Origin: a virus
Length of the DNA stretch: 64,000 bases
Reading direction: 5' to 3' (one strand)
Virus record (IMG/VR): IMGVR_UViG_3300010885_037407
Location: 1 to 64,000 of that record
A model generated the notes under the pieces. That model made no database searches, was not told where the DNA came from, and saw only the letters and a program-made list of their open reading frames with translations. Made by a program: the position numbers and the translations under genes. The stretch's first letter is position 1. Each line of letters begins with the position of its first letter. Shown piece by piece: positions 5,068-42,555 of the stretch.

Positions 5068-5084
5068 ATAAGCACCTTAACTTA
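5068..5084. repeat. Right-hand (transcript 3') arm of inverted repeat A
   Basis: The 17 bases ATAAGCACCTTAACTTA are the reverse complement of 5980-5999, apart from a three-base insertion (GGT/ACC) there. The arm lies just after the stop of the gene at 5096. Confidence 0.6.
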
Positions 5085-5095
5085 GTTAGATTTTA

Positions 5096-5890
5096 TTACA
5101 ATGTATTGCCACAAGTAGGACAATATTTCCAAGATGACTTTCTGATTCTCACCCCACATTCGCCGCAGTAGGCTCGTATATCGCCTATATTAACGACTTT
5201 CAAAGACTCCGGCAATAATTGATATACAAACGTTTCTGTTGTATAATCATTGAATTTTCCGGCTGCCTTTTGTAGCTTTTGTTTAGACTTTCCTCCCTCT
5301 GCAACTCTGCCTGTTTCCACAGTGTCAATAGCCGTTTTAATATTAGGTCCTGCAAAGGTACTAACACCTGCATTATTAAATAAAGCATTGCCGCTTGATA
5401 CGTTAGAAGTAGCCGTTGAACATATTCCTTGACCATTGTTTGTAGTGTAAGTTACATTTCCAATATATGGAGTTCCTAATGTTAAAGTACTAGGATATGT
5501 TGTTACTGTGCTTGTTCCATTTCCAAATAACAATCCATTGAATTGTTCTCTGTAAAATGATATTGACACTACTCCATTGGTAACTCTAGCTTTTTTAGTT
5601 TCCTTAACATCATCTACTTCAAATATATTGAATTGGAATTTCTCAGGAGACTCTAAAAATCTTTCAAGGTAAACTCTTTCTCCTGCTGCAATGATAATAC
5701 CAGTCGCCATTTGTTTTCCATTCAATGAAATTTTAGCTAGTACTTTCTGGCTTGTAGGATTGAACAATTCAATCTCGAATTTAGATTTGTCTTTTAAATA
5801 ATGATTTTTTTCTTCGTAAAGTTTAAGTCTGTTTTTCTTTACGGTAATGTAAGCTTCAGGTCGAAGCGTGGTAAGGTTTGTTGTGTACAT
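5096..5890 (-). CDS. Beta-rich protein with C-terminal zinc ribbon (264 aa)
   Basis: Residues 1-110 are beta-rich, with FEIELFNPTSQKVLAKISLN and GERVYLERFLESPEKFQFNI, resembling a jelly-roll or decoration-type virion domain. A Gly/Thr/Ser/Asn-rich middle (about 120-185) follows. The C-terminus carries CGECGVRIR...YCPTCGNTL, a clear zinc ribbon. I do not recognise an exact family; a surface or virion-associated role is an inference. The gene is enclosed by inverted repeat A, which may mark it as a mobile cassette. Confidence 0.6.
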   Translation of the reverse strand: MYTTNLTTLRPEAYITVKKNRLKLYEEKNHYLKDKSKFEIELFNPTSQKVLAKISLNGKQMATGIIIAAGERVYLERFLESPEKFQFNIFEVDDVKETKKARVTNGVVSISFYREQFNGLLFGNGTSTVTTYPSTLTLGTPYIGNVTYTTNNGQGICSTATSNVSSGNALFNNAGVSTFAGPNIKTAIDTVETGRVAEGGKSKQKLQKAAGKFNDYTTETFVYQLLPESLKVVNIGDIRAYCGECGVRIRKSSWKYCPTCGNTL

Positions 5891-5908
5891 AATTTCCTTT
5901 TTGATAAA

Positions 5909-5980
5909 TTAATAATTTAGTAATGCTAATCTTTTTAGAGCCAATGACTCCTCGAAGGTATCTCTACCCAAGACTAACAT
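5909..5980 (-). CDS. Possible 23-residue peptide upstream of the zinc-ribbon gene
   Basis: A short frame from ATG at 5980, which overlaps the last base of inverted repeat A, to TAA at 5909-5911. It reads MLVLGRDTFEESLALKRLA and ends LLNY, which is more protein-like than random AT-rich sequence. It may be a leader peptide for the gene below. Evidence is weak because of its length. Confidence 0.3.
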   Translation of the reverse strand: MLVLGRDTFEESLALKRLALLNY

Positions 5981-5999
5981 AAGTTAAGGTGGTGCTTAT
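5980..5999. repeat. Left-hand (transcript 5') arm of inverted repeat A
   Basis: TAAGTTAAGGTGGTGCTTAT pairs with 5068-5084 except for an extra GGT. The two arms enclose the 23-residue frame and the zinc-ribbon gene, about 0.9 kb in total. Confidence 0.6.
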
Positions 6000-6012
6000 A
6001 GTAATAAATATG

Positions 6013-6486: not shown

Positions 6487-6722
6487 GATTTTACTTTTAA
6501 AGGTTGTATTTCAGTTAGAAATTGTTCTACTGTTAATGTTTGATTTCGGTCTGTCTTAATTCTTACGTCTTTTAATAACTCAGGACTTCTGTCTACCATA
6601 GTCATTAAAGCAACTAATCCTTGTCCCGCGTAAAACGTATTAAATGATGATTCGCCTAATAAGTTCGAATCGTAATCACAGTCTTGCTCTGTGTCGCCTG
6701 GGAGTAATATAAAATATTGCAT
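6483..6722 (-). CDS. Hypothetical protein (79 aa)
   Basis: Small alpha/beta protein beginning MQYFILLPGDTEQDCDYDSN, with a Trp-free helical C-terminus. It overlaps both neighbours by one to four bases, so it is translated as part of the glycan operon. Similar short proteins occur in large phages as I recall, without known role. Confidence 0.6.
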   Translation of the reverse strand: MQYFILLPGDTEQDCDYDSNLLGESSFNTFYAGQGLVALMTMVDRSPELLKDVRIKTDRNQTLTVEQFLTEIQPLKVKS

Positions 6723-7579
6723 TACTCTTCAGATACTGCTCTCCCTATTTGTTTTGTCCAGTCAAAATCAGTTCGAACATCATTATTTTTATATGCAGTG
6801 CCGGAAAGCACAATAGGATCTACTCCAATCGCTTTTGCCAAATAAGTTAAAGCAGCTACATCTTTAGGAAAGCAATGACCTCCATATCCAAAATCTCCAT
6901 CCGGGCCGGGTACTGACCAATGTGATTGTCCTAATCGCTCATCATATCTAGCATATTCAATTACTTTGTCATAATCAATATCCAATGCCTTTGAAATTTG
7001 ATACATTTCATTTGCAAATGAAACTTTAGTTGCTAGAAATGTATTAGTAACATATTTAACCATTTCTGCAATAGTTGAAGATGTTTTGATAATAGGCACT
7101 TTAGGAAAAGCTTTTGCAAATATTTGTTTGATTTGAGAAGTGTGTGGTCTTTCACCTCCTACAATAATTCTATTTTGATTTTTATAATCGTCATTGGCAT
7201 TTGCTTCTGTTAAGAATTCTGGATTGAATACTACATCTACATTGTAACTATATAATTCATTTAAGGTTTCAGTTGTTCCAGGCGGAACTGTAGATTTAAG
7301 TACTACAGTTACATGTTTTTTCAAGTCTCTGCATACAGATGATATTTCTTTCATTGCATTGTGTACTATAGATAAGTCACATGCTCCTGATTTGTACATT
7401 GGTGTAGGTACACACAAAAATACTATTTCAGTTTTATTAATTACATCATATAAAGATTTTTCTGTACATGATTTATTTGGATCTTTGTCATATGTTATCA
7501 TATCATAACAATGAGACATCCCTTCAGTGACAGCAGTTCCTACAAACCCTTGTCCTATAACTCCTAATTTGCTTTTCAT
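6722..7579 (-). CDS. Short UDP-glucose/GDP-mannose 6-dehydrogenase-like protein
   Basis: Rossmann motif GQGFVG at residues 9-14, FLCVPTPM near 54-61, FNPEFLTEANA near 118-128, and the catalytic Cys236 in YGGHCFPKD. These residues oxidise UDP-glucose (or a similar NDP-sugar) to the uronate with two NAD+. At 285 aa it stops after the central helical domain and lacks the C-terminal UDP-binding domain of usual enzymes (about 390-450 aa). It may be a naturally minimal enzyme, bind its sugar through dimerisation, or have changed specificity. It supplies precursors for the glycan cluster. Confidence 0.8.
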   Translation of the reverse strand: MKSKLGVIGQGFVGTAVTEGMSHCYDMITYDKDPNKSCTEKSLYDVINKTEIVFLCVPTPMYKSGACDLSIVHNAMKEISSVCRDLKKHVTVVLKSTVPPGTTETLNELYSYNVDVVFNPEFLTEANANDDYKNQNRIIVGGERPHTSQIKQIFAKAFPKVPIIKTSSTIAEMVKYVTNTFLATKVSFANEMYQISKALDIDYDKVIEYARYDERLGQSHWSVPGPDGDFGYGGHCFPKDVAALTYLAKAIGVDPIVLSGTAYKNNDVRTDFDWTKQIGRAVSEE

Positions 7580-8751
7580 TTTAAATGTATTAAATCGTTT
7601 TGGTATTCTTTTAAACTGTTTATTGTAATTTTTAAATTGTTGATTTGAAACGTACCTATTTCACCTGAGTCTTTAATTATTTCAGACAGCTGTTGTACGA
7701 TATTAAAATCTTCTTGATTAAATATATTAGCATCGAATTCAACTAATATATCATTATTCTTTTCGCTGTCAAAAGGTAATACTCTGTCAGCTAAACTATA
7801 TAATGTATTAGTCTGTTCCCTTGCAATATAACTACTAATTAAATTGTCTTTATCATGTATGTACACTGTCGTGCACCACGTTTCCAAGGCGCTCAAAGAT
7901 GCCATTGAAGCATTGTTTAAGATAAAACCTACATTGTATTTAGGCGGTATAATAGGCTTCATATGGGTATCATGTTTAACAAAGTGACCCCATTTGCGAA
8001 TAAACTCTTTACTATTTTTAGTAGTAGTATATGTCCATTCATCGCTATTCTTTCCTGCTCCGCCACCGGCATGTTTATTAAATCTGCTTCCCCTGGAAGT
8101 AAAATGATATACTAGTCCGTCCCATGACTGAATTACATTATATCCATTTAAAACAAACCTATTAAATAAATCTGAATCTTCTTTTGATTGCGGAGCAAAT
8201 ACTTCATCATGGCCGCCAATAGATAAATAATCTTTTTTATACATACACCATGGTGCGAAAATACCCTCAGTAGTCTTATTTTTATGTATTGATTCTAATT
8301 CTAAAAAATATTGAACACATTTATCATAATTATAATCTTCAACTTCATTGCCCCATGGAAGTGTAATTTTTTCCGGCCCAGGAGGATGCAAAGGCGGTTC
8401 AACTCGAGTAGCTGACACTACAGTTCCTTCAGTTAAATGTTTAAGTATATTAACATCTAAATTTGGAGCAGCTACCATATCTGCATGAAACGCAAATATA
8501 ATTTCTGTCTTAGCCATTTCAATTCCTTTATCAAACATTCCTACAATTCCTATTCTTTCTGGACCTGGATTACTATATACAATAAGGTCATCATCTTTAA
8601 GAGATTCAATCCAATGTAATGTTCCATCAATAGATGCATCATCTAATATAAGTACTTCATGTTTAGTACCTAAATTTCGAATTGATTTGTATGCTAATTT
8701 TAAAAATTCAAGATTGTTTCTTGAAGGTAAGACAAATGTTATTTTTTGCAT
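7576..8751 (-). CDS. Glycosyltransferase family 2
   Basis: The N-terminal GT-A domain starts with ITFVLPSRNNLEFLKLAYKS and continues with VLILDDASIDGT (nucleotide binding) and AFHADMVAAPN, whose HAD takes the DxD place. A C-terminal extension of about 130 residues is unassigned. GT2 enzymes transfer a sugar from an NDP-donor with inversion. Start and stop overlap both neighbouring genes, so it is translated with the dehydrogenase and epimerase. Confidence 0.8.
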   Translation of the reverse strand: MQKITFVLPSRNNLEFLKLAYKSIRNLGTKHEVLILDDASIDGTLHWIESLKDDDLIVYSNPGPERIGIVGMFDKGIEMAKTEIIFAFHADMVAAPNLDVNILKHLTEGTVVSATRVEPPLHPPGPEKITLPWGNEVEDYNYDKCVQYFLELESIHKNKTTEGIFAPWCMYKKDYLSIGGHDEVFAPQSKEDSDLFNRFVLNGYNVIQSWDGLVYHFTSRGSRFNKHAGGGAGKNSDEWTYTTTKNSKEFIRKWGHFVKHDTHMKPIIPPKYNVGFILNNASMASLSALETWCTTVYIHDKDNLISSYIAREQTNTLYSLADRVLPFDSEKNNDILVEFDANIFNQEDFNIVQQLSEIIKDSGEIGTFQINNLKITINSLKEYQNDLIHLK

Positions 8752-9590
8752 ACTAAATATTCTTTTATATAATCAATAATATCTTTTTTAGGGCTCCATC
8801 CTAGTATTTCTTTTGCTAATGTGTCCGTACAAAGAGTTATATCTGCTTCACCTGGCTTGTTCTTTTGATATTCTACTTCTATTCCAAATGCAGATGCTAT
8901 TTCATTTACTGAATAGTTTTGCCCTTTTCCTAATTCAAATATAAAATTCCAAGCTTGTTTAGTACTAACTAAAATCAATCCATTTACAATATCATCTACA
9001 TGTGTAAAGTCTCTGCGCTTTGTGCCATCTCCGAAAATAATAAGTGACATACCTTCTTCAACTCTCTTCTCCCATGCTCCTATTAAAGTAGTATATCCTC
9101 CTTCTTTTAATTGATACGGGCCATAAACATTATAAAATCTAACTATAGTAGCTTTTAAATTATAATGATTTTGAAATAATTGAATAATCTCTTCTCCTAT
9201 ATCTTTACTAAAGGTATACGGGTTTTTAAATTTACCTGAGTGGTGTGAACTACTTCCTGCATATACAAGCGGTATATTTTTTTCAGAACAATATTTTGCT
9301 AACTTCATAGTAGCATTGGCATTGGTCGTAAAATACTCTTCTGGATTCATAAAAGAAGGTTGTATTCTAGCAATTGCAGCTAAATGGTATATAATATCAA
9401 AATCGCCCCAAGCTGAATAGTCAGATATAGTTCGTATATCTCTATCTAGATAAAGGCATCCTTCTTGGTGATTACTTTTCAATCCTGTATTATAGTTATC
9501 TATTGATACAACTTTATGACCTTCTTCAAGCAGCTTTGCAATTAAATTTGTTCCTACAAATCCTGCTCCTCCTGTTATTAAAATTTTCAT
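8739..9590 (-). CDS. NAD-dependent nucleotide-sugar epimerase/dehydratase (SDR)
   Basis: Extended SDR: GGAGFVG at residues 7-13 binds NAD; Tyr125-x3-Lys129 (YTFSK) is the catalytic pair, with the SSS at 113-115 supplying the Ser. It resembles UDP-glucose 4-epimerase and related dehydratases; the precise sugar is not predictable. Length (283 aa) is slightly short of typical 310-330. It overlaps genes on both sides. Confidence 0.8.
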   Translation of the reverse strand: MKILITGGAGFVGTNLIAKLLEEGHKVVSIDNYNTGLKSNHQEGCLYLDRDIRTISDYSAWGDFDIIYHLAAIARIQPSFMNPEEYFTTNANATMKLAKYCSEKNIPLVYAGSSSHHSGKFKNPYTFSKDIGEEIIQLFQNHYNLKATIVRFYNVYGPYQLKEGGYTTLIGAWEKRVEEGMSLIIFGDGTKRRDFTHVDDIVNGLILVSTKQAWNFIFELGKGQNYSVNEIASAFGIEVEYQKNKPGEADITLCTDTLAKEILGWSPKKDIIDYIKEYLVCKK

Positions 9591-10585
9591 AATATATTAT
9601 TTATGTCTTGTTTAAATTTTTCTGTAACAACTGAGCTGCTATACATACTACTAACGTTTTCTAATGCCGTTTTACTTACTAAACTATAAAAATCAGCATC
9701 AGTTAATAAACGAGTTATGCATTCTTTAATTGCTTTGTAATCTGTATATTCAAATGATGTATAAGGATATAAATCTTTTTGGCAATCTAATTGTATATTG
9801 CCAATTAATGGAACACCTAATGATGCAAATTCAATTGAATTGTTACCGCATGAAAAATCTCTTTGTATATCTATTCCAAATTTGCAATTGTAAATATATG
9901 ATATCCATTCATCTACATGCATAAAATTTTGAAATTTCATATTACCTAATGAATATGAATCTGGAAATGATAATGACGTTAATCCTACTCCTTCAGGAGG
10001 TCTATTATATTTCATACATCTAACTTCAATATCGTTAGGTACGGTATCATAAATTAATTTATGCACTATCATTCCACGCTGATATCGTTTAAATGGGCCT
10101 GCAATTGATATATAGTTTCCACTTTCAATAGTTTTAATTTCATCTGAAATTAAATTAACACAGCCAGGATATTTGATAAATTTATTAGTAAATGCTTCCA
10201 TTACTTTTTTATCATGTTCATTATGGTAACAAAATGCTTTACACTTCGACAAACATTTTATGTATAGTTGCTGTGCATCTGCTGTCCAATCAAACCAATC
10301 AAATATATTTGTTTCTTGATTAATAAAAACTGTATTGCTGTCCATGATAGACAACAATGCAGTTAATTTATTTGATTCGTCTGACGTAGGCGTTTGTATA
10401 AATATTACATTACCGCTTCCAATTGTATGCAAATCTTGCCATTGCAATGAACTCCATGGCAATAATTCTATATATGCATGAGGGGTCCTATGTCTATCAA
10501 ACTTATAATATCCATTAGGAATGTTAAGATCATTAACGTAATAAATTTTATTGGTTAATCCAATCCCATTTGCTTCCATTATCAT
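9587..10585 (-). CDS. Putative GT-B glycosyltransferase
   Basis: The C-terminal half has the look of a retaining GT-B donor domain: GNYISIAGPFKRYQRGM, then GNNSIEFASLGVPLIGN, where Glu before the ASLGVP segment matches the donor-binding Glu of GT4-type enzymes. The N-terminal half is unassigned. The ATG overlaps the end of the upstream gene by 38 bases; I see no better start downstream. Confidence 0.55.
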   Translation of the reverse strand: MIMEANGIGLTNKIYYVNDLNIPNGYYKFDRHRTPHAYIELLPWSSLQWQDLHTIGSGNVIFIQTPTSDESNKLTALLSIMDSNTVFINQETNIFDWFDWTADAQQLYIKCLSKCKAFCYHNEHDKKVMEAFTNKFIKYPGCVNLISDEIKTIESGNYISIAGPFKRYQRGMIVHKLIYDTVPNDIEVRCMKYNRPPEGVGLTSLSFPDSYSLGNMKFQNFMHVDEWISYIYNCKFGIDIQRDFSCGNNSIEFASLGVPLIGNIQLDCQKDLYPYTSFEYTDYKAIKECITRLLTDADFYSLVSKTALENVSSMYSSSVVTEKFKQDINNIL

Positions 10586-11510
10586 AGAAATAGTTAATAG
10601 TTTTTTTCAAAGAGTCTTCTAGAGTTGTTGAATATCTCGCATCAATTACAGAATATAATTTTGTATTGTCTGATTGCAAGTGCCATATTTCCCATGGACG
10701 AACTTTGTCTTGATCAACATTAATTATAACTTCATCATGACCCATTAACTTACCAATTAAATGACCTAAATCATATATTTGAATTCCGTCTTCTGAGCCC
10801 ATATTATATACTTCACCGAATTGACCTTTTTCTAATAATTCAACTGACATTCTAACTGCATCTCCTGCATATAAGAAATCTCTAAAAGAATTATTTCCTA
10901 ATTTAAGTTGATTTGATTTTGATAATTGTGAAATAATTTCCGGTATTACATATTCATGTGTCTCACGTTCTCCAACACAATTAAATTGACGTAATGCTAT
11001 AGCAGGTACCCCAGCTTCCTTCCATCTTACTTGCACCAATCCGTCTGCTGCTAATTTAGAAACTCCATAAGTTGAATGAGGTTCAACAGGATCACTTTCT
11101 TTAATTTTACCTTTCATATCACCATAAATTTCAGCTGATGATACTTGCATCAAACCTTTGATGTTTGCTGCTTGACAAGCATTAAGTACTCTTAATACAG
11201 AAGTTGCATTAATATCAAAAAAGTGCATTGGTCTTTCAAAACACTCAGGAATATATGGTTCAGCTGCATAATTAAATACATACTCAATTTTATTGTCTAA
11301 TAAAATTTTAGTTAATTCATTTTCATTATCTCTAATATCATGCCAAATAAATTTAGCTTTAGAATTGATATTTTTATTGCGCCCTGTAATTAAATTGTCT
11401 AATACAATTACTTTACAATTTCTTTCGTCTGCTAGATAATCTACAAGGTGTGAGCCAATGAAACCAGCTCCGCCTATTACACACACATTTGTGTTTCTAA
11501 TACTTCTCAT
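10548..11510 (-). CDS. NAD-dependent nucleotide-sugar epimerase/dehydratase (SDR)
   Basis: GGAGFIG at residues 13-19 and YGVSK at 148-152 define an extended SDR, close in style to UDP-glucuronate decarboxylases, GDP-mannose dehydratases and 4-epimerases. The start chosen is ATG 11510, four bases after the upstream stop; a TTG at 11531 is in frame but overlaps that gene. It is the second of three such enzymes in the cluster and probably feeds a distinct NDP-sugar. Confidence 0.8.
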   Translation of the reverse strand: MRSIRNTNVCVIGGAGFIGSHLVDYLADERNCKVIVLDNLITGRNKNINSKAKFIWHDIRDNENELTKILLDNKIEYVFNYAAEPYIPECFERPMHFFDINATSVLRVLNACQAANIKGLMQVSSAEIYGDMKGKIKESDPVEPHSTYGVSKLAADGLVQVRWKEAGVPAIALRQFNCVGERETHEYVIPEIISQLSKSNQLKLGNNSFRDFLYAGDAVRMSVELLEKGQFGEVYNMGSEDGIQIYDLGHLIGKLMGHDEVIINVDQDKVRPWEIWHLQSDNTKLYSVIDARYSTTLEDSLKKTINYFYDNGSKWDWINQ

Positions 11511-11514
11511 ATTT

Positions 11515-12123
11515 TTATTTAAGTTTAACAATTATTTGCAATTCGTGGTGATAGAATCTATTAACATTTTCAAACAACCCTAATATTTCAAACCCATTGG
11601 CCATAAACAATTCAGCAAATGAATCTAATGAATCAATAGCTAAATAGTGAGCTCTATGTTCTGTGTTGTTTTCTTTAGGTATTACTACATATAATACTCC
11701 GTCTGGTTCCAATACTTCTTTAATATTAGTAAATACTGAATCTATATCATACATATGCTCAAATACATGAGACATAGATATAAATTTATATGTTTTACCA
11801 AAAGCAGATATTGATTTTTGTGCGTCCTCCAATGCTAAATGTGCACGCACATTTTCAGATAGTTTAGGCCATAAGTTTTCAAATGCAGCAACACTAATAT
11901 CAGTGCCATATACATTTTTATATCCTTTGTCATGCAACTGGCTAACAAAAATACCATTTCTAGTACCAATATCTAAAATATTATCATCAAACCCAATTTG
12001 ATGTTTATCAAATATAGTGTTTATAATATTATTGTAATGTAATGTACTATCATCTATGCCACCTCGATTATTTTGTGCTTCCACATAATCTTCATAGGAT
12101 TTTATTTCTTTTTTAACAATCAT
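11515..12123 (-). CDS. SAM-dependent methyltransferase (class I)
   Basis: Methyltransf_11/12-type Rossmann fold: motif I LDIGTRNGIFVSQL near residues 44-57, GTDIS acidic loop, and a motif like FISMSHVFEHM near 110-120 (the HVFEH post-I pattern of sugar and small-molecule methyltransferases). It probably methylates a sugar in the glycan. It follows its own promoter-class site by 15 bases, the only such site found inside the cluster. Confidence 0.75.
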   Translation of the reverse strand: MIVKKEIKSYEDYVEAQNNRGGIDDSTLHYNNIINTIFDKHQIGFDDNILDIGTRNGIFVSQLHDKGYKNVYGTDISVAAFENLWPKLSENVRAHLALEDAQKSISAFGKTYKFISMSHVFEHMYDIDSVFTNIKEVLEPDGVLYVVIPKENNTEHRAHYLAIDSLDSFAELFMANGFEILGLFENVNRFYHHELQIIVKLK

Positions 12124-12138
12124 TTTTTTATTTATAGG

Positions 12139-12170
12139 TTAATATAATGAAATCTTTTATATAAATCAAA
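12139..12170 (-). promoter_or_regulatory. Internal promoter of the glycan cluster
   Basis: Minus strand: TTTG, 20 bases (core TAAAAGATTT, G at position 13), TATATTAA. It sits in one of the few real gaps of the cluster and would drive the genes from 12123 down to 6013. Confidence 0.5.
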
Positions 12171-12681
12171 TTTTGTTGCCGGAAATAATAAAGTCTCGTT
12201 CTTTACTATGATACATAGCTTCGTAAATTGCAGTGTCTACAAACCCTACTTCATTGAATAATGGTATCAATGTTTCCGGACACCATGCCCACTTATGACC
12301 ATAAGTGTTTTCCCACCCAAATATTTGTTTCAACCCTTTACTGCTATGCAAATCCCAAGCATCGTTGCAATTTACTATAAATTCTGCTACTTTTTTTATG
12401 TTAGCAGTTTCCATTACTAAACGTCCACCTGGTTTCAGCCAACCTAACCATTTAGTAAGTTGCTGACGCATTTGGTTTGGGTTACTAGGCGAATCTTGCC
12501 CTCCTTTAATATACATTGCAAAGTGTGATACTATAATTTCGTCAATTGAGTTTTCATCAAATTCTAATTCAAATACATCTGCATTGATATCAACTCGAGT
12601 ATCTGGAAATTGTGATTGATTATCAATATTGATATATCCGTCTAAATATAAAGGCCCGCATGCTAAATTTAATTTCTTCAT
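12166..12681 (-). CDS. Methyltransferase-like protein (171 aa)
   Basis: Begins KLNLACGPLYLDGYINID, a degenerate SAM motif I typical of the small methyltransferases found beside polysaccharide genes, followed by DENSIDEIIVSHFAMYI and KWLGWLKPGGRLVMET (the LKPGG motif). It likely methylates a sugar or lipid-linked intermediate. The stop lies within the promoter site for the next unit. Confidence 0.65.
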   Translation of the reverse strand: MKKLNLACGPLYLDGYINIDNQSQFPDTRVDINADVFELEFDENSIDEIIVSHFAMYIKGGQDSPSNPNQMRQQLTKWLGWLKPGGRLVMETANIKKVAEFIVNCNDAWDLHSSKGLKQIFGWENTYGHKWAWCPETLIPLFNEVGFVDTAIYEAMYHSKERDFIISGNKI

Positions 12682-12682
12682 T

Positions 12683-13759
12683 TTATATAAATTTCAATAT
12701 TGTGTTTGCAATATAATCTATTTGGTCATTTGTCAGTTCAGAATATGTTGGTAATATTAAACCATGTTTACTAACATATTCTGAACTTGGTAGAGTTTCT
12801 TTAGAATTAATAAATGGCTGTTTATGTAACGGATAAAAAAAATGTCTATAATCTATTTCATTTTCTGTTAAAGCTTGTAATACAATGTCATAATTTGTTT
12901 TAACTAATATACTATAGTACCAATATACATTATTATATCCTTTAGGCTGTAATGGTATTTGTATCTTATCATTAGTTTCAAACCATTGATTATATCTAGA
13001 TGCAACTCGTTTTCTGTCACTAATAGTTTTATCTATGTTATGTAATTGTCCTAAACCGATACTAGCCTGCATATTTGTTAGTCTAAAATTAAACCCAATA
13101 TCAGAATGAATATATCTTTTACGCTCCGTAAAATTCAAATTTCGTAACATTAATAACTGGTTATAAGTATCAATATTATCTGTTAATATGCAGCCGCCTT
13201 CTCCCATTGTAATAATTTTATTTGAGTAGAATGAAAAAGTTGCTATATCACCAATACTACCTGCTATAATATTTTCATAGCTAGCTCCATGTGATTCTGA
13301 TGCGTCTTCTATTATTTTTATTTCAGGATACTTAGTTTTTAGAGTCATAACTTTATTAGGATCAACTACTAATCCATATGTATTAACTACAATTATAGCT
13401 GAAGTATTTTCAGTAATTTTAGATTCTATAGATTTAAAATCTACATTCCAAGTGTCAATATCAATATCACAAAAAACAGGAACTAACCCATTTTCAGTAA
13501 TAGATGTTAAACAAGATAAAATTGTCATTGAAGGAACTATAACTTCAGATCCTTTCGGCAAATTTAAAGCTTTAACTGCCATATATAAAGCTACAGTGCC
13601 ATTGCAACATGTTACTGCATATTTTCTATTACAAAATTTTGCAAACTCATTTTCAAATTGAATTATTTGCTCGCCATTTGCAATAAAATTATCATCAATA
13701 GCTTTTTTTGCTAAATCTTTATCTTCTTCGTATAACTTTGGTATTGATATTGGAATCAT
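12683..13759 (-). CDS. DegT/DnrJ/EryC1/StrS-family sugar aminotransferase
   Basis: PLP-dependent aminotransferase that makes amino-sugars from 3- or 4-keto NDP-sugars. Evidence is the family start (MIPISIPKLYEEDK), EDASESHGA at 151-159 with the PLP-contacting Asp, and the Schiff-base Lys181 in FSFYSNKIITMGEGG. Full length at 358 aa. With the epimerase/dehydratases it implies that the phage makes at least one aminated deoxysugar. It overlaps the gene below by four bases. Confidence 0.85.
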   Translation of the reverse strand: MIPISIPKLYEEDKDLAKKAIDDNFIANGEQIIQFENEFAKFCNRKYAVTCCNGTVALYMAVKALNLPKGSEVIVPSMTILSCLTSITENGLVPVFCDIDIDTWNVDFKSIESKITENTSAIIVVNTYGLVVDPNKVMTLKTKYPEIKIIEDASESHGASYENIIAGSIGDIATFSFYSNKIITMGEGGCILTDNIDTYNQLLMLRNLNFTERKRYIHSDIGFNFRLTNMQASIGLGQLHNIDKTISDRKRVASRYNQWFETNDKIQIPLQPKGYNNVYWYYSILVKTNYDIVLQALTENEIDYRHFFYPLHKQPFINSKETLPSSEYVSKHGLILPTYSELTNDQIDYIANTILKFI

Positions 13760-14604
13760 AATTTATTTTTCTGATATAATATTGGGCCAATCGTTCCTTT
13801 ATGATGAATCATATATTCTCCCATTGCACTAGCTTCTAAAACTCTACTTCCAATTGGAGATATATCTCCGCAATGTGCACAAAGGTTATTATACTTTAAA
13901 TCCATTTCATTTTTAACTGCATCAAATGTATGACAATCAGTTTTAAATTGTAACGATAACACATTGCCAGTTATCCAATAGTTAAAGTTATTAAATATAA
14001 ATTCTTTAGTACCTTGAATTGACTTATTAAATGCTAAAAATCCCGTTTCAGTATGAGTATCTTTAATTGTAGCAGATACCTGATTAGTCATAATATAATT
14101 TCCATTGCTATCATATGCACCATGTCGCATCACTTTAAATAATTCTCTTCCTAAATAAGCTATGTTATAATTTTTTAGAATATTTAAAATATGAGAAGGT
14201 TCAATATACTTTATAAATAGACAATCAGAATCTATAGAACAAAAATCTTCATTAGTAATTTCATTCATATATTGCATTGCTGCGACAGGACGAAACCATT
14301 TAACGCTTCTTGGACTAGAGTATTCATCAGTAAATTCAATTTTGCTTTTTAAATTAGCATCTACATAATCTACAATTCTTTTATTATCATATTCATAAGT
14401 CATAATGTTTGCAATAACAATAGAAGGATTATCAATCCATTCTAATAACCAATCTGGATAGTATTCTGAATATAAATCATCTTCGTTTTCAAAAAATACA
14501 TATAATTTATGTGTTGTATCATTGCTAGTATTAATAAATGACTGTAATAATTTTTTACCGCAAATTTCGTATATTTCTTTAGTAAATGTAGTTATAAAAT
14601 TCAT
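13756..14604 (-). CDS. Putative GT-A glycosyltransferase
   Basis: Contains an SIDSDCLF segment near residue 122, resembling the DxD metal-binding motif of GT-A enzymes, and an EASAMGEYM near the C-terminus. Family assignment beyond that is uncertain. Context within overlapping glycosyltransferase genes supports the role. Confidence 0.5.
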   Translation of the reverse strand: MNFITTFTKEIYEICGKKLLQSFINTSNDTTHKLYVFFENEDDLYSEYYPDWLLEWIDNPSIVIANIMTYEYDNKRIVDYVDANLKSKIEFTDEYSSPRSVKWFRPVAAMQYMNEITNEDFCSIDSDCLFIKYIEPSHILNILKNYNIAYLGRELFKVMRHGAYDSNGNYIMTNQVSATIKDTHTETGFLAFNKSIQGTKEFIFNNFNYWITGNVLSLQFKTDCHTFDAVKNEMDLKYNNLCAHCGDISPIGSRVLEASAMGEYMIHHKGTIGPILYQKNKL

Positions 14605-15590
14605 ATTGTTTCAAATTTGTTTTGATTAGACCCGATCAGTGATAAGTTATAATTTGATTTTTTATGTATTACATCAAATACTGTATTTGCAGATCTTCTA
14701 TCTCTTACATTAGAGTTTGAATCCTCTCCTAATATATAATTTCGTTTAAATGGATGATTTCTATTATGTACTTTAAGTACATTCTTAACTACAAATTGTA
14801 CATAGCTGTTACCCATTATTGTATTAATTGAATTTTGAAAGGCAGTGTCCTCGCCAGTTCCTGATACCGCCGGCGGTATATTAACACCATTTAACAATAA
14901 GTCTTTTGATATAGTTAATAGTGAGCCATCGAATCTAGGATAATTAAGTATTGATATATCAAATTCATCATACTTACTATTAATTTGATTCATTTCATCT
15001 TCTTTCATATAATACCAAATGCTAGAAGGTGTTGTTGAGCATGCTTCATGAGTTGAAGGCAGGAATGTTTTATTTTGAAAATCTTTATGCTCTAAAACAC
15101 TCCAGCTAGCATCCCACATTTTTCTTACTGCAAAAGTAAGACAAAATCTATTAATATTGGATTGAGTTGCATACGCAGATATCTGCTCAACGGCTTCAAA
15201 GTATTGTTTAGGCATAAGACAATCAGACTCTCCCCATACAATATAATCAAAATTCAAACAATTAAAATAGTTTAAATCTCTTCTATAAGAGCCTATAGAA
15301 TATAAAGTATTATCATCTTCATATAATTTATAAGAAGTTTTAATTCCTATAGATAATAAAGGGTCTATACAATATTTTTTAAATTTATTAATTAAGTCTT
15401 CTCTAGAGATCTGTGTAGTATCTAATTTTTCAGTTAATTGAGACAAATTTAAAAGATATTCAACTTCTATATTTTCTTTATTTTGCAAATCTACACAAGC
15501 AGATTTAACCGAATTTGTAAAGTCTTTGGCAGCGTCTATTTCATAGAACATTACCATAGTTCCTATTTTATAAGTTTTATTTAATATCAT
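14601..15590 (-). CDS. Putative glycosyltransferase (GT2-like)
   Basis: I choose the ATG at 15590, which overlaps the upstream stop by 14 bases; an in-frame start at 15644 would overlap it by 68. A GT-A-like first strand (KIGTMVMFYEID) and YIVWGESDCLMP, with ESD in the DxD position, suggest nucleotide-sugar binding. The protein has long AT-rich, Asn/Lys-rich stretches. Acceptor unknown. Confidence 0.5.
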   Translation of the reverse strand: MILNKTYKIGTMVMFYEIDAAKDFTNSVKSACVDLQNKENIEVEYLLNLSQLTEKLDTTQISREDLINKFKKYCIDPLLSIGIKTSYKLYEDDNTLYSIGSYRRDLNYFNCLNFDYIVWGESDCLMPKQYFEAVEQISAYATQSNINRFCLTFAVRKMWDASWSVLEHKDFQNKTFLPSTHEACSTTPSSIWYYMKEDEMNQINSKYDEFDISILNYPRFDGSLLTISKDLLLNGVNIPPAVSGTGEDTAFQNSINTIMGNSYVQFVVKNVLKVHNRNHPFKRNYILGEDSNSNVRDRRSANTVFDVIHKKSNYNLSLIGSNQNKFETI

Positions 15591-16329
15591 TGTATAAGTA
15601 ATTATAAGTTTCTCGCATCCAAAATAAATCTTCACTTTCTTCACTATATTTAGGCAAATCGGAATTGAAATGAAAAATCCATCCTAATTTAGTAAATAAG
15701 AAATCTGTATGTATAATTTCTTTTTTGTTCATTTCCATCATATTATATGCGTATGGAAAATGCTTAATTGCTATATTCTTTTCAGCTAAAAAGAAATTCA
15801 AAGGAATTTGATCACTGCCAGTTTTAGAAAAATTTTGTACTTGCAAAAATAAATCTTTATTTGATAAATAAAAATCTGTAATGTATTTAAAAAATTCTTT
15901 ATGCGATTTGTTAACTATCTGAAATCCTCCATTAATAGTAGTATGCCATGGAATTGTATTACCAAATATAAATTTAGAATAATTTTCAATGCCTCTAATA
16001 GTCCATTCATAACTACCGTCATTTACTACCCCACAATATAATCCTTCAGTCTCATTAAAAAAATTAGGACAATCAGGATGAATAATAGTATCACAATCTA
16101 CCAATAATATTTGGTCATATTCAATATCAGAATTCTCTAACATTTCAAATACAAAATATCGTTGCCAAGTAATTTTCATGTCACTAACTGGCGTCAATGG
16201 TACATCAAAAATTACTAGTTCACAATCATTCTTTTTACACCAATACTCCCAACTTTTTATGCTATATCGATATCCAGCTGCCCTACCATCATTATTATCT
16301 ATAAATGGTATAAATACTATATTTTTCAT
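15577..16329 (-). CDS. GT-A glycosyltransferase, GT8/GMA12-like (copy 1)
   Basis: Starts at ATG 16329, overlapping the TGA of the upstream gene (ATGA). ILLVDCDTIIHPD near residue 75 is a clear DxD motif, and the HTTINGGFQIVN segment matches the acceptor region of GT8- or galactosyltransferase (GMA12/MNN10)-like enzymes. It is paralogous to the next gene upstream: the same MKN(I/L)V start, the same W(E/K)YWC(K/D)KN segment, and the DxD at the same place. Confidence 0.65.
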   Translation of the reverse strand: MKNIVFIPFIDNNDGRAAGYRYSIKSWEYWCKKNDCELVIFDVPLTPVSDMKITWQRYFVFEMLENSDIEYDQILLVDCDTIIHPDCPNFFNETEGLYCGVVNDGSYEWTIRGIENYSKFIFGNTIPWHTTINGGFQIVNKSHKEFFKYITDFYLSNKDLFLQVQNFSKTGSDQIPLNFFLAEKNIAIKHFPYAYNMMEMNKKEIIHTDFLFTKLGWIFHFNSDLPKYSEESEDLFWMRETYNYLYNDIK

Positions 16330-17090
16330 TGATAATTGTGTTTTACTATTGACCATGTTTGATCAATCAATGATTGTTTATTCTCAATCGAAATGCCTGT
16401 AAAGTGCCAAATATTTGAATAACTTATAAAGAATGGTATTTGCACTTCATTTAATTGCCAATTATAATCTAACATACCACGCTTTTGTATAGCTATTAAA
16501 TTCCATTCCGGAGACAAAAATTTCTTTTTTACATTTAATTTTTTCAACATTAAATTAAATATAGTTTGCTCTTTTCCTACTCCTCCTATGTTCCAATTAT
16601 CTAAAGTATCTTTATGTTTTAAATAAAAAGAAACTAATTCATCAAATATATACTTATGGCGTTTATTAAACATTAATACTCCTGCATTGATATATTCATG
16701 TAATGGCAATTCAATATCTTTAAATTCGGGAAAGTATTCTTTGTAAGTTTTAATACTATTATCTACCCATCTTAAATTGGCAGAATCTATTACTCCACAA
16801 AATTCATCTTCATACAAATCAAAGAAATTTGGAGCATCCCATTTAATCATAGTGTCAGAATCAACTACTGCAATTTTATCATATTTACCTTCTTCAAATT
16901 TATCAAATACAAATTCTTTATTCCAGATAGGCATTACTACTCTAGGGTCTGACTCATATTGTATTATGATATCAACATTGTTTTTATCACACCAATATTT
17001 CCAACTCTCAATGCAATTAACTGAAAAGTCAGAAAATTTATATCTTGAGCTTGTATGATCAATGGATACTATATATACTAAATTTTTCAT
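16326..17090 (-). CDS. GT-A glycosyltransferase, GT8/GMA12-like (copy 2)
   Basis: Begins at ATG 17090, one base after the upstream TAG, although the frame is open further up. IAVVDSDTMIKWDAPNFF carries the DxD; YINAGVLMFNKRHKYIFDEL is the acceptor-side segment. Clearly related to the adjacent downstream gene, so one arose by tandem duplication and may have gained a different donor or acceptor. Confidence 0.65.
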   Translation of the reverse strand: MKNLVYIVSIDHTSSRYKFSDFSVNCIESWKYWCDKNNVDIIIQYESDPRVVMPIWNKEFVFDKFEEGKYDKIAVVDSDTMIKWDAPNFFDLYEDEFCGVIDSANLRWVDNSIKTYKEYFPEFKDIELPLHEYINAGVLMFNKRHKYIFDELVSFYLKHKDTLDNWNIGGVGKEQTIFNLMLKKLNVKKKFLSPEWNLIAIQKRGMLDYNWQLNEVQIPFFISYSNIWHFTGISIENKQSLIDQTWSIVKHNYQ

Positions 17091-17091
17091 A

Positions 17092-17667
17092 CTACCAGTT
17101 ACTCCATTTAATATTATTATCAGAAAAATATTGTATAATAGAGTTGTACCTAGAATTATATTCATTTTGCAATTCTGGTTTTACAAATCTATTATGAAAC
17201 TCAACAAATATTTTTTCTATAGGTTTAATTAAATCTAATTTAATTAAATGCTCTAATACATCATACTCAGCTCCTTCAATATCCAATTTCAAATAAATTT
17301 CATAATTTTTATATGATTCAATTACAGTGGCTAAATCAATAGTATTAACTTCATATTGATCTACATATCCATATCCATTGGATATGTGATTACTAAAAAT
17401 TTCTTGACCTAAAAAAGTACTTCCTTGAGTATTATTATTTGTCCTAGGGTCTGGTATATTAAATGTCATTATTGCGTTTTTGTTCCATACACCACAATTA
17501 TTAATATCAATAAATTCTTTATATTTTTTAATTAAAAAATTATAACAGTCTTTATTTGGCTCATACATTATAACTTTCCAAGTATCATCAATTAATAATT
17601 TTTTTGATAACTCAGTAAACCCTTGTCCATAATTAGAACCGCAATCTATTAGTATTTTTTTATTCAT
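17092..17667 (-). CDS. FkbM-family methyltransferase
   Basis: SAM site LIDCGSNYGQGFTEL at residues 6-20, and the FkbM hallmark LKLDIEGAEYDVLEHL near 127-142, where the DIEGAE acidic residues contact substrate. FkbM enzymes O-methylate sugars and polyketides. The 191-residue length is on the short side but complete. It overlaps the upstream gene by eight bases. Confidence 0.8.
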   Translation of the reverse strand: MNKKILIDCGSNYGQGFTELSKKLLIDDTWKVIMYEPNKDCYNFLIKKYKEFIDINNCGVWNKNAIMTFNIPDPRTNNNTQGSTFLGQEIFSNHISNGYGYVDQYEVNTIDLATVIESYKNYEIYLKLDIEGAEYDVLEHLIKLDLIKPIEKIFVEFHNRFVKPELQNEYNSRYNSIIQYFSDNNIKWSNW

Positions 17668-18547
17668 TTCTTAAATATATGTAATTTGGATGATTAATTA
17701 TTTCTTTTGGATGCTGAATATCAATCTTACAAATATATCTTGCTGGATCTGATTCTGCTTTATTTGGCCTTACTACAATTGAAGCATCTTTACATTGTTT
17801 TGCTAATTCCAATCCAGCTAAAAAGTTATTATGATATTCAGTATCACGTTTCAATTGTGACACACGAAGTTGTTTATATTTTCCAGGTCTCCACCAAGCA
17901 TAATGAAATATATATTTAGGAAACATAGTCAATGGATATTGTTGACTCATAAAATTAACTACTATTGATTTATAATAGTCCCATGTGCCAAATTTAATTG
18001 CAATTCTTCTGTAATGTATTGTATTAGGGTTTAATGCATTACCTTCAACATAATATTGATTTTCCATAAAATCTACATATGGAGCTTGCAACCCTTCATT
18101 AGGTTTTAAATTTTCTAAATACTCATTTAATAACGCAACATCATTTTCATGAAAAAATACATCCCCTTCTAATGGAAATATAATATCACCTTCATTAATT
18201 TCAATTCCTAATTCTTTAAAATTGCTAACAGCTTCAACATAGCATATATTAGCGTCTGAAGTTTCATAATTCATTTGATTCCAAATAATTTTAGTATTTG
18301 GAAATAATTCTTGAGCTTCTTTAATTGAAGATTGAACTAATTTTGTATCCCAAGCTAAATTAGTATTTTCATAACAAAATTCAGTTTGAAAGTTTACGTC
18401 AATCCCTCCTTTATTTTCAGGTCCACTTGGAAATAAACCTTCATTGAATATAATATAATCTGGATTAATTGTATTAACTAAATTTTCAATTTGAAGTGTT
18501 GTAAAATGTCCTTCTCCGAAACAAGGTATTATAACTATTTTTTTCAT
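17660..18547 (-). CDS. Putative glycosyltransferase (295 aa)
   Basis: First strand KKIVIIPCFGEGHFTTLQIE and NEGLFPSGPENKGG resemble nucleotide-binding starts in GT2/GT17-like proteins; FPLEGDVFFHENDV near residue 140 could be a degenerate metal site (EGD). The assignment is mainly contextual. It is a conserved-looking globular protein without membrane segments. Confidence 0.45.
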   Translation of the reverse strand: MKKIVIIPCFGEGHFTTLQIENLVNTINPDYIIFNEGLFPSGPENKGGIDVNFQTEFCYENTNLAWDTKLVQSSIKEAQELFPNTKIIWNQMNYETSDANICYVEAVSNFKELGIEINEGDIIFPLEGDVFFHENDVALLNEYLENLKPNEGLQAPYVDFMENQYYVEGNALNPNTIHYRRIAIKFGTWDYYKSIVVNFMSQQYPLTMFPKYIFHYAWWRPGKYKQLRVSQLKRDTEYHNNFLAGLELAKQCKDASIVVRPNKAESDPARYICKIDIQHPKEIINHPNYIYLRNE

Positions 18548-18548
18548 T

Positions 18549-19550
18549 TTATTTTTTCCAAAAGCTATAAATTCCTTTTTCTAATTCATATGAAGGCCAT
18601 ACAAAACGTTCTCTTTTAGGTTGAGTTTGTACCCACTTCCACATTTCAGTTAATCCGTCTTTTAAATTTGTTTTATGCTCAAATCCTAAAATATCAACTG
18701 ACTTTTGCCAAGTCGGAATTGAATGTTTAACTTCATGACGACTTTCTAAATGAAGTACTTCACCAGCACCTATAACTTCATGAAGAATAGTTGCAGCTTC
18801 ATTAATTGAATGCTCTTCAACACCGCCGACATTGATAATTTGTTTAGATGCTTCGGGTAGTATAGCTGCATTCCATAAAGGTTCTAAACTATCATCAATA
18901 TAACTAAATGCTCTTGTCTGCTCGCCATTACCAAAGATAGTCATAGGCTCCCCATTCATATGTTGAAACATCCAAATGCCTAATACATTGCGATACTTGT
19001 CCCAAATATTTTGTTTAATACCATAAACATTATGAGGGCGTATAATACACCAATCCAATCCATGCTGTTCTCCGGCAATTTGAATATCCATTTCACATCC
19101 ATACTTTGCTACTCCATATGGATCAATAGGTTTTGGAGTTTGTGTTTCATTAAAATATCCTCCTTCTCCATGTCCATATACAGCAAGAGTTGACGTAAAT
19201 ACTAATCGTTTAACATCATGTTTAATACATTCATTAACGACATTAGCAGTTGCGACTAAATTGTTTTGATAATTATATCTTCTGATAAATGGAGACAATC
19301 CTTCAGCTGCATACGCTGCTAAATGAAATACATGCTCAGGTTTATACTTTTCAAATATATAAGATAATTTTGTTGGTTCTAATGTTAAGTCCATACAAAT
19401 AAATGTAACGGCCTTATTAACATTTTCGGTATATCCGCCAGATAAATTATCAATTCCAATTACATTGTATTCTGGATGATTTTCAATAATGTAATCAGCT
19501 AATCTAGATCCTAATAGTCCCGCTACTCCTGTTATTAATACTGTGTTCAT
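18549..19550 (-). CDS. NAD-dependent UDP-sugar 4-epimerase/dehydratase (SDR)
   Basis: Extended SDR with GVAGLLG at residues 8-14, the catalytic YGVAK at 145-149 and TSTLAVYG at 119-126. The closest look is to UDP-glucose/GalNAc 4-epimerases. Full length (333 aa). Third SDR of the cluster; together with the dehydrogenase and aminotransferase it implies several different NDP-sugars. Confidence 0.8.
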   Translation of the reverse strand: MNTVLITGVAGLLGSRLADYIIENHPEYNVIGIDNLSGGYTENVNKAVTFICMDLTLEPTKLSYIFEKYKPEHVFHLAAYAAEGLSPFIRRYNYQNNLVATANVVNECIKHDVKRLVFTSTLAVYGHGEGGYFNETQTPKPIDPYGVAKYGCEMDIQIAGEQHGLDWCIIRPHNVYGIKQNIWDKYRNVLGIWMFQHMNGEPMTIFGNGEQTRAFSYIDDSLEPLWNAAILPEASKQIINVGGVEEHSINEAATILHEVIGAGEVLHLESRHEVKHSIPTWQKSVDILGFEHKTNLKDGLTEMWKWVQTQPKRERFVWPSYELEKGIYSFWKK

Positions 19551-19558
19551 AAATTTGT

Positions 19559-20254
19559 TTAATTTTTGTCTTTATAATTTAATAAAACATTAGAAGCTAT
19601 AGGAGCTCCTAAATCTCCTTCAATATCAAATAAACAAATTGCATTTGATTGATTAAAAATAGATCCTGGGAACCCTTCTGCCCCATATCTGTTCATACCA
19701 AATTCTTTTTGGTATTCGTTAATTTCATTAATTTTATTTCGTAAAGATTCATTTTTAAGCCAATACATAGTACCTGAATAATGCCACTTTGATGATGGTA
19801 TTACACTTAAATTGCTTGTTCTTATAAATGGACCGCAGCTATCGTAAGATTTCATTATATTGTCTACTAATTCAATATTATCTAAATTAGATTCATATAA
19901 GTATTTAGTCCATAAAGTATGAATTTCTGAGTATGCTAGTGTTAATCTTTTATCACTATTACTTTTTGAATGCCCGAAAAAAGTAATACCTGGCTCATTA
20001 ATTATTTCAGGTAATAAAACTTGAAATAATGATTTAGTTTCTCTAGCGTCTTGATCATTTTCAATAGTAAAGATTTCAAAGTCACTGAATTTATCTTGTA
20101 TTTCATTTAACTTGTAAACTGTGTCTATGTTGTTTAACGAAAAACAAATTATTCTCCTTCCATTAAATAAATCTTTATACTTTATTAAAGTTTGATAATG
20201 AAAATCAAATTTAGTCTTTTCTGGATAGAAGTGATATATTAAATTATGCTGCAT
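19559..20254 (-). CDS. Glycan-cluster protein of unknown family (231 aa)
   Basis: No clear DxD or Rossmann motif. Segments such as TFFGHSKSNSDKR and SKWHYSGTMYWLKNES look like those in uncharacterised proteins found within phage and bacterial capsule clusters, possibly glycosyltransferases. It overlaps the upstream gene by eleven bases. Function is inferred only from location. Confidence 0.5.
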   Translation of the reverse strand: MQHNLIYHFYPEKTKFDFHYQTLIKYKDLFNGRRIICFSLNNIDTVYKLNEIQDKFSDFEIFTIENDQDARETKSLFQVLLPEIINEPGITFFGHSKSNSDKRLTLAYSEIHTLWTKYLYESNLDNIELVDNIMKSYDSCGPFIRTSNLSVIPSSKWHYSGTMYWLKNESLRNKINEINEYQKEFGMNRYGAEGFPGSIFNQSNAICLFDIEGDLGAPIASNVLLNYKDKN

Positions 20255-42183: not shown

Positions 42184-42555
42184 TTATCCGTTTAATATTT
42201 GTTTTTTACTTTCTTTTTTTGTTTTAAGCTTATGCTCAAAGTATTCTTCTAATGCTTTTAATCTTTCATTGAGATTCAAATTTGTTCTGCCTTCCAGCTT
42301 ATCAACTCTTGAATCTGTATGACTAATTGCTTCACTGAACATAGTATTTACTCGATCAATCTCTCGATCTATTCTTCTATTAACGCTTAAGTCATTGTCA
42401 TTAATTTGTTTTTCAATTGAATTAGCAAGTGCTGATTCAAGATTTGCAGCAAATACTTGCAACTTATTAACTTCTACAACTGTCTTAACCAATACCACAA
42501 CCCCTGCTATTCCAAGAACTGCACCTATGCCTAAAATAAATGATAATGTTTCCAT
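42184..42555 (-). CDS. Membrane-anchored coiled-coil protein (123 aa)
   Basis: Residues 4-27 are a membrane helix (LSFILGIGAVLGIAGVVVLV), followed by a long charged coiled coil (NRRIDREIDRVNTMFSEAI, VDKLEGRTNLNLNERLKAL) and a basic end. The build is like DUF948-type proteins and like the gene at 1343. It is alone between the two arms of inverted repeat B, so it may be a separately acquired gene. Confidence 0.6.
   Translation of the reverse strand: METLSFILGIGAVLGIAGVVVLVKTVVEVNKLQVFAANLESALANSIEKQINDNDLSVNRRIDREIDRVNTMFSEAISHTDSRVDKLEGRTNLNLNERLKALEEYFEHKLKTKKESKKQILNG

Follow-up and report, generated by a model that had tools for sequence, protein, structure and literature searches.

We analysed a stretch of viral DNA of 64,000 nucleotides, referred to here as the window, in which a single gene on the minus strand is enclosed by the two arms of an inverted repeat. 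Read directly from the sequence, positions 5068-5084 are ATAAGCACCTTAACTTA and positions 5980-5999 are TAAGTTAAGGTGGTGCTTAT; the reverse complement of the latter, ATAAGCACCACCTTAACTTA, is the 5068-5084 arm with three additional bases, exactly as the original prediction had described it. The minus strand carries, in this order, a promoter-like motif (ATATTTATT), the arm ATAAGCACCACCTTAACTTA, a structured stretch of 54 bases, an A/U-rich leader, a gene of 264 codons and the arm TAAGTTAAGGTGCTTAT (Table 1). The predicted helix between the two arms is called P1, and the helices of the structured stretch are called P2, P3 and P4.

Table 1. Positions of the features at the locus, in window coordinates
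Feature	Position	Strand	Remarks
Promoter-like motif ATATTTATT	6003..6011	-	putative; just upstream of the 5' arm
P1, 5' arm of long-range stem	5980..5999	-	ATAAGCACCACCTTAACTTA in RNA; predicted to pair with 5068-5084; covaries in relatives
Three-way-junction RNA domain	5925..5978	-	covariance-model match 5921-5982, 61.6 bits, E 2.7e-11
P2	5978-5970/5933-5925	-	junction helix closing P3 and P4
P3	5969-5966/5959-5956	-	junction helix
Linker UCGA	5955-5952	-	between P3 and P4
P4	5951-5948/5940-5937	-	junction helix
Linker AAA	5936-5934	-	after P4
Gene, 264-aa protein	5096..5890	-	relatives in IMG/VR and in huge phages including Lak; AlphaFold2 model; BFVD matches
P1, 3' arm	5068..5084	-	TAAGTTAAGGTGCTTAT in RNA; starts 12 nt past the stop codon

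Elsewhere in the window, a long run of minus-strand genes resembling sugar-nucleotide and glycosyltransferase genes (epimerases, UDP-glucose dehydrogenase) occupies positions 6722-20254, and genes for GroEL, DNA polymerase, ribonucleotide reductase and a DnaB-like helicase are found further along.

The gene and its protein

The encoded protein is made up of an N-terminal beta-sandwich, a disordered stretch (residues 121-184), a core marked by ETGRxxxGxxSxQ and a C-terminal zinc ribbon. The earlier reading of the gene as a zinc-ribbon gene agrees with two CxxC motifs that are clear by eye, although the match to Zn_Ribbon_1 (PF13240) is below the Pfam cut-off (17.3 bits versus 25, E 0.004). The AlphaFold2 model, based on 55 sequences, has a pLDDT of 77, with confidence in a beta-rich N-terminal domain, further order around the ETGRxxxGxxSxQ core and disorder at the residues given above. 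A fold search of the PDB returned no significant match, the weak ones being MSP/Ig-like. Predicted structures in BFVD gave matches with E between 1e-19 and 1e-3, among them ranavirus ICP-18, wsv390-like proteins, pithovirus W5S497 and the phage SHOCT protein A0A8D9FQF2, and the fold also matches proteins of iridoviruses, nudiviruses, nimaviruses, pithoviruses and relatives of mimivirus. The likeness to proteins of large eukaryotic viruses is structural only, at about 10-21% identity; the modelled structures suggest that one protein family may be common to giant phages and large eukaryotic DNA viruses.

Relatives of the gene occur in at least 357 IMG/VR stretches and in 22 phage records, among them those of Lak phages and of metagenomic phages 0.46-0.74 Mb in size; its carriers are Lak and other phages of 0.25-0.73 Mb, and 84,980 bacterial and archaeal species genomes contain three matches only. 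Among the close relatives, L003-L005 have 58% identity and the same gene order, L006-L007 have 43% identity, different neighbours and, downstream, a gene identified by eye as GroES-like, and L008 is a further member. The protease-like gene upstream has no confirmed relatives in IMG/VR. No neighbour gene recurs across lineages, so that the RNA described below belongs to the family of the 264-codon gene. In L136 and L137 a SHOCT-like helical tail stands in place of the C-terminal zinc ribbon, and the arm pairing is kept. In one phage contig of 271 kb, an array of seven tRNAs (L158:732-1658) lies ~1.3 kb upstream of the gene, one of them scoring just above the Rfam threshold for selenocysteine tRNA.

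Predicted pairing between the two ends of the message

Within a single genome the repeat is only marginally unusual. It is the top-scoring inverted repeat within 1.5 kb in the 64-kb window, and an equal score within 1.5 kb was reached in 76 of 300 shuffles of the window that keep local composition, which means that the repeat alone is not above chance once the search of the whole window is counted. When each leader is compared with the first bases after the stop codon of the same ORF, the locus ties for first among 78 ORFs (score 28; 0.12 ORFs expected). The whole-genome search for the arm sequence proposed with the original prediction found no second copy in the 80,739-base record, and blastn against annotated phages gave no match. 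An IMG/VR search with the arm sequence found the pattern once per contig among the matches listed, as expected of a short AT-rich pattern. The repeat is recognized as non-chance because its pairing is conserved with covariation in relatives.

In these relatives the arms are found at the same two places with different sequences that are still complementary. Examples are TATAGCGCCA/TGGCGCTATA in L003 (also TATAGCGCCAATAACTTTGTTAG with CTAACTTAGTTATTGCTGGCGCTATA after the stop codon) and, likewise with the second arm after the stop, AGAACACCCATAACTTTG with CAAAGTTATGGGTGTTTT in L006, TCTCACTTTGTT with AACAAAGTGAGA in L128, TTTATAGCTGTTCG with CGAACAGCTATAAA in L137 and GGGTGCCTTTCGTAC with GTACGAGAGGCACCC in L150. 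The original prediction had counted related genomes that keep the gene and lose the repeat as evidence against it; relatives have indeed lost the arm sequence, yet they retain the pairing, as is characteristic of RNA structure. Its other reservation, that such arms may arise at a similar rate in shuffled sequence, applies to the window taken by itself, whereas conserved and covarying pairing in the relatives excludes chance.

The pairing was quantified in 43 representatives with less than 70% protein identity, anchored at the junction, by scoring the best uninterrupted helix between leader and tail and then re-pairing leaders and tails among loci. The mean native score is 24.8 versus 16.0 +- 0.6 for re-paired combinations, a difference of ~14 s.d., and none of 5000 permutations reached the native value (maximum 18.6). 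The native pair exceeded 95% of the swapped leader/tail pairs in 26 of the 43; in these 26 the 5' arm mostly ends 0-8 nt from the junction and the 3' arm begins 5-21 nt past the stop codon. RNAduplex energies of each leader with its own tail, obtained for 45 representatives below 70% protein identity, are -29.5 kcal/mol compared to -22.4 +- 0.63 kcal/mol with tails exchanged (0 of 2000 permutations reach the native value). P1 has 10-18 uninterrupted base pairs in most lineages that possess it. Minimum-free-energy folds of ~1-kb transcripts contain P1, with 12-27 pairs, in all 15 P1-type loci tried, and it is likewise present in the fold of the window's 958-nt transcript. In a huge-phage contig of 271 kb the family gene is the top outlier in leader/tail pairing among 296 ORFs, with a score of 32.5 where none is expected at 30 or above; the runner-up ORF scores 28, is pure A/T and compares with 0.5 expected. 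About 17 of the 43 representatives have no recognisable P1. As judged from these comparisons, each arm is one half of a long RNA stem by which the start and the end of the gene's mRNA would be joined, and the original suggestion of such a stem around the message is thus supported by both covariation and folding.

The motif ATATTTATT occurs four times on the minus strand of the window and not at all on the plus strand, and similar motifs (TATATTTAT, TATATAATA, TAAATATTA) are found roughly ten bases upstream of the arm in almost every relative; transcription probably starts at or near the 5' arm. Terminator-like hairpins follow the 3' arm in L194, L199, L200, L201, L211, L218, L220, L136 and L137, and the transcript would end after the 3' arm. 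In the window, the 5' arm is ~90-110 nt upstream of the start codon, and the sequence CUAAC directly before the 3' arm is able to lengthen P1 by pairing with GUUAG of P2, in competition with P2 itself.

A second, unrelated gene of the window (42184-42555, minus strand; 123 aa with a hydrophobic N-terminus and a probable coiled coil) lies between the arms of a perfect 11-bp inverted repeat, CTGTGCTAGCT (42590-42580) and AGCTAGCACAG (42177-42167). Some 30 IMG/VR relatives of this gene (L266-L297) have a leader/tail helix of 11-22 bp with changing sequence, for example AAGTTACTGCTCTTTGAC / GTTGAAGAGCAGTAACTT and TTTGATATATTGGTAGT / ACTACCAATATATTAAG, and several of them appear directly after the 3' end of a tRNA.

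A three-way junction tied to the gene

The structured stretch next to the 5' arm had been taken for a frame of 23 codons, and the junction formed there had been missed. The frame itself exists (5979-5908), but it is not conserved as an ORF: at this position relatives contain stop codons or lack a start, the peptide is not conserved and the stretch is a structured RNA. Among relatives, nearly all of which have the junction, the linker between P3 and P4 is UUGA, UAGA, UCGA or UGGA (UNGA) and the one after P4 is AAA, GAA, AAU or GAU; nine pairs were modelled for P2. In 14 hand-trimmed sequences 93% of cells pair and double changes are seen at 14 of 17 pairs. The covariance model built from these 14 matches the window and 71 of 83 relatives in the leader of the gene, with E down to 6e-14 and mostly in sequences outside the seed. 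Over 63 distinct sequences 92% of cells are paired, with double changes at all 17 pairs, and the covariation measure is 0.696 compared to 0.246 +- 0.012 after shuffling and at most 0.147 with slid partners; the 63-row alignment was fitted to the model and so favours it, and relatedness inflates the contrast with shuffles, whereas relatedness is retained in the slid controls. With a separate descriptor this shape was also recognized in two Lak loci, L129 and L134, and in L138, L194, L201, L211 and L221, with scores of 49-55 in these seven loci versus at most 43 in 270 shuffled leaders. A possible degenerate junction is seen by eye in L130, and none was found in L214. P2 starts 71-100 nt upstream of the start codon in most loci, and the junction persists even in loci without P1.

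Rfam 15 has no match at the element in the window or in eight divergent loci at the gathering score, and relaxed thresholds gave chance or tRNA matches only. Searches of open-access papers found nothing relevant on such an RNA in huge phages. The element appears to be a new RNA family of unusual architecture, and the device apparently has not been described. It resembles a hammerhead ribozyme in that three helices meet with ...GA and GAA-like linkers; that candidate was rejected, as the linkers are UNGA (4 nt) and RAA/RAU-like with no CUGANGA core, and there is no fixed A-U closing pair or NUH cleavage site. The pRNA of phi29 is a phage-encoded RNA with a three-way junction; it is a separate packaging RNA, whereas the present junction is a cis element of an mRNA with other helices and linkers.

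The link between junction and gene is near-exclusive. Matches to the junction model always lie in the leader of the gene, except for three weak ones in capsid genes (L155, L187 and L193; 19-25 bits), which we judged to be chance similarity in coding sequence. Whole-record scans found a single junction in most scoring huge-phage records; LR756501, a phage of 735 kb, has a second one (46.8 bits) directly upstream of a VWA-domain-like gene (L225:822-1563). When IMG/VR was scanned with two DNA patterns taken from the junction only, 12 contigs were found, five of them new, and a member of the gene family lies downstream in all 12, which indicates that RNA and gene travel as a pair. A VWA-like gene seems to lie downstream of the zinc-ribbon gene in L128.

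The two ends could also be joined in another way. In a large clade without P1 (L145, L155, L193 and others), where the gene lies downstream of a gp23-like capsid gene (by eye), the P4 loop has the sequence UUCACGG(A), and CCGUGAG forms the loop of the terminator directly past the gene; the stem of this terminator varies in sequence and its loop does not. In L161 and L180 the P4 loop and the 3' UTR have the pair UCACGAG / CUCGUGA. These complementarities score at or above the 95th percentile of exchanged pairs; within the clade the loop-loop pairing hardly varies, and the covariation consequently rests on two states. With few independent changes, the pattern suggests a possible second way of joining the ends. 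For roughly ten of the ~17 representatives without P1 no replacement closure was found, and neither P1 nor the loop pairing is convincing in L008, L132, L138, L165-type loci, L221 and the Lak loci (L129, L134).

Possible roles of a predicted closed message

We consider it likely that the block is a closed-loop mRNA device in which closure between the 5' and 3' ends controls the decay and/or translation of the message for one phage protein. The block would be a single transcription unit producing an mRNA shaped to close on itself as a loop, with transcription starting at the 5' arm or immediately upstream of it. This arm would pair with the 3' arm a few bases past the stop codon to form P1, which would abut the three-way junction; the entire reading frame and the A/U-rich stretch for ribosome loading would remain in the loop. 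In the P1-less clade and two further contigs, pairing between the P4 loop and the 3' UTR would join the same two ends. If the message folds in this way in cells, closure may shield it from end-dependent decay and/or gate its translation, possibly by way of the encoded protein binding the junction, and the outcome would be that one conserved phage protein is produced in the right amount. The arms lie far from the start codon, and a tentative direction for the effect can be read from this: it would speak for protection of the 5' end or a platform over direct occlusion. In bacteria, translation begins while the 3' arm has yet to be transcribed, so that closure is unable to govern its first rounds.

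Several other explanations have to be considered. That the repeat arose by chance in AT-rich DNA fits the frequency with which local shuffles of the window reach its score, but the native versus re-paired helix test refutes it: the pairing is conserved and covaries across relatives and ranks high in the UTR-UTR comparisons, leaving chance a negligible probability. The original prediction had suggested that the arms may end a non-autonomous mobile unit, as its terminal inverted repeats, and the arms do bracket a single gene whose neighbourhoods differ between lineages. This too is very improbable, as the arms are single-copy, differ in sequence between copies while remaining complementary within each, and are fused to an RNA domain and expression signals. 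The block is kept in all three contigs with the same neighbours, and a search for loci with these flanks but without the block, the comparison by which the mobile unit was to be recognized, found none; the acyltransferase-like downstream neighbour, distant homologues of which occur elsewhere without the gene, is neutral on this point.

Explanations that retain the RNA structure deserve more weight. The message could be a reservoir mRNA inhibited by folding back, stable but silent when closed, or an RNase III substrate, and opened by processing or a trans-acting factor. The hok mRNA of hok/Sok is a short message that is inhibited when its 3' end folds back on its 5' region; the phage locus has no sequence, gene or junction similarity to hok, and unlike hok/Sok it has no visible toxin or antisense RNA, a longer P1 and an unmasked start. 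The best-studied bacterial case of 5'-3' UTR pairing is icaR of Staphylococcus aureus, where the 3' UTR pairs with the 5' UTR of the same message through a UCCCC motif that masks the Shine-Dalgarno sequence, blocks 30S loading and recruits RNase III, which cuts the duplex, so that the pairing represses rather than supports expression (PMC3868564). The phage loci share with icaR the complementary 5' and 3' UTR segments of one gene (26 of the 43 representatives), and in the window the CUAAC after the stop codon is able to continue P1 into the 5' strand of P2 and might act as a switch. However, the pairing does not cover the Shine-Dalgarno/start region: the arms lie near the extreme 5' end beside a conserved junction, covary over many lineages and leave the start codon and the A-rich stretch before it uncovered. 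In addition, P2 ends tens of bases short of the start codon, on its upstream side, L006, L128 and L158-type loci do not conserve the CUAAC extension, and loci without P1 still keep the junction. We regard a reservoir mRNA as possible but rather unlikely. A similarly tentative place belongs to an autoregulatory operator, in which the junction would be bound by the very protein that the mRNA encodes, with P1 as a scaffold. The near-exclusive one-to-one link between RNA and gene favours it, and zinc ribbons often bind nucleic acid. On the other hand, the loci with a SHOCT-like tail (L136, L137) keep P1, and L137 keeps the junction as well, so that the zinc ribbon is not an obligatory RNA binder, and the second junction of LR756501 precedes a VWA-domain-like gene. 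It is improbable that the closed mRNA is a functional RNA in a ribonucleoprotein with the encoded protein, for example a virion or assembly component, with junction and P1 as structural parts; if so, many different giant phages would use one transcript both to encode a protein and as an architectural RNA.

The locus combines a structured RNA with clear covariation, absent from Rfam, with a widespread uncharacterised gene of huge and related phages, one to one. It suggests that bacterial phages may use direct base pairing to join both ends of an mRNA, a form of end-joining documented in bacteria for a few single genes only; the known parallels, icaR and hok, are such single-gene cases. The natural compensatory variants make control of bacterial gene expression by mRNA end-closure directly testable. 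The second, unrelated gene of the window, which also has a conserved closing stem, is a hint that the habit may be more widespread. Across very distantly related giant phages the RNA shape has been preserved with its letters changed, so that it is to be taken as a real RNA device and not as a mobile element.
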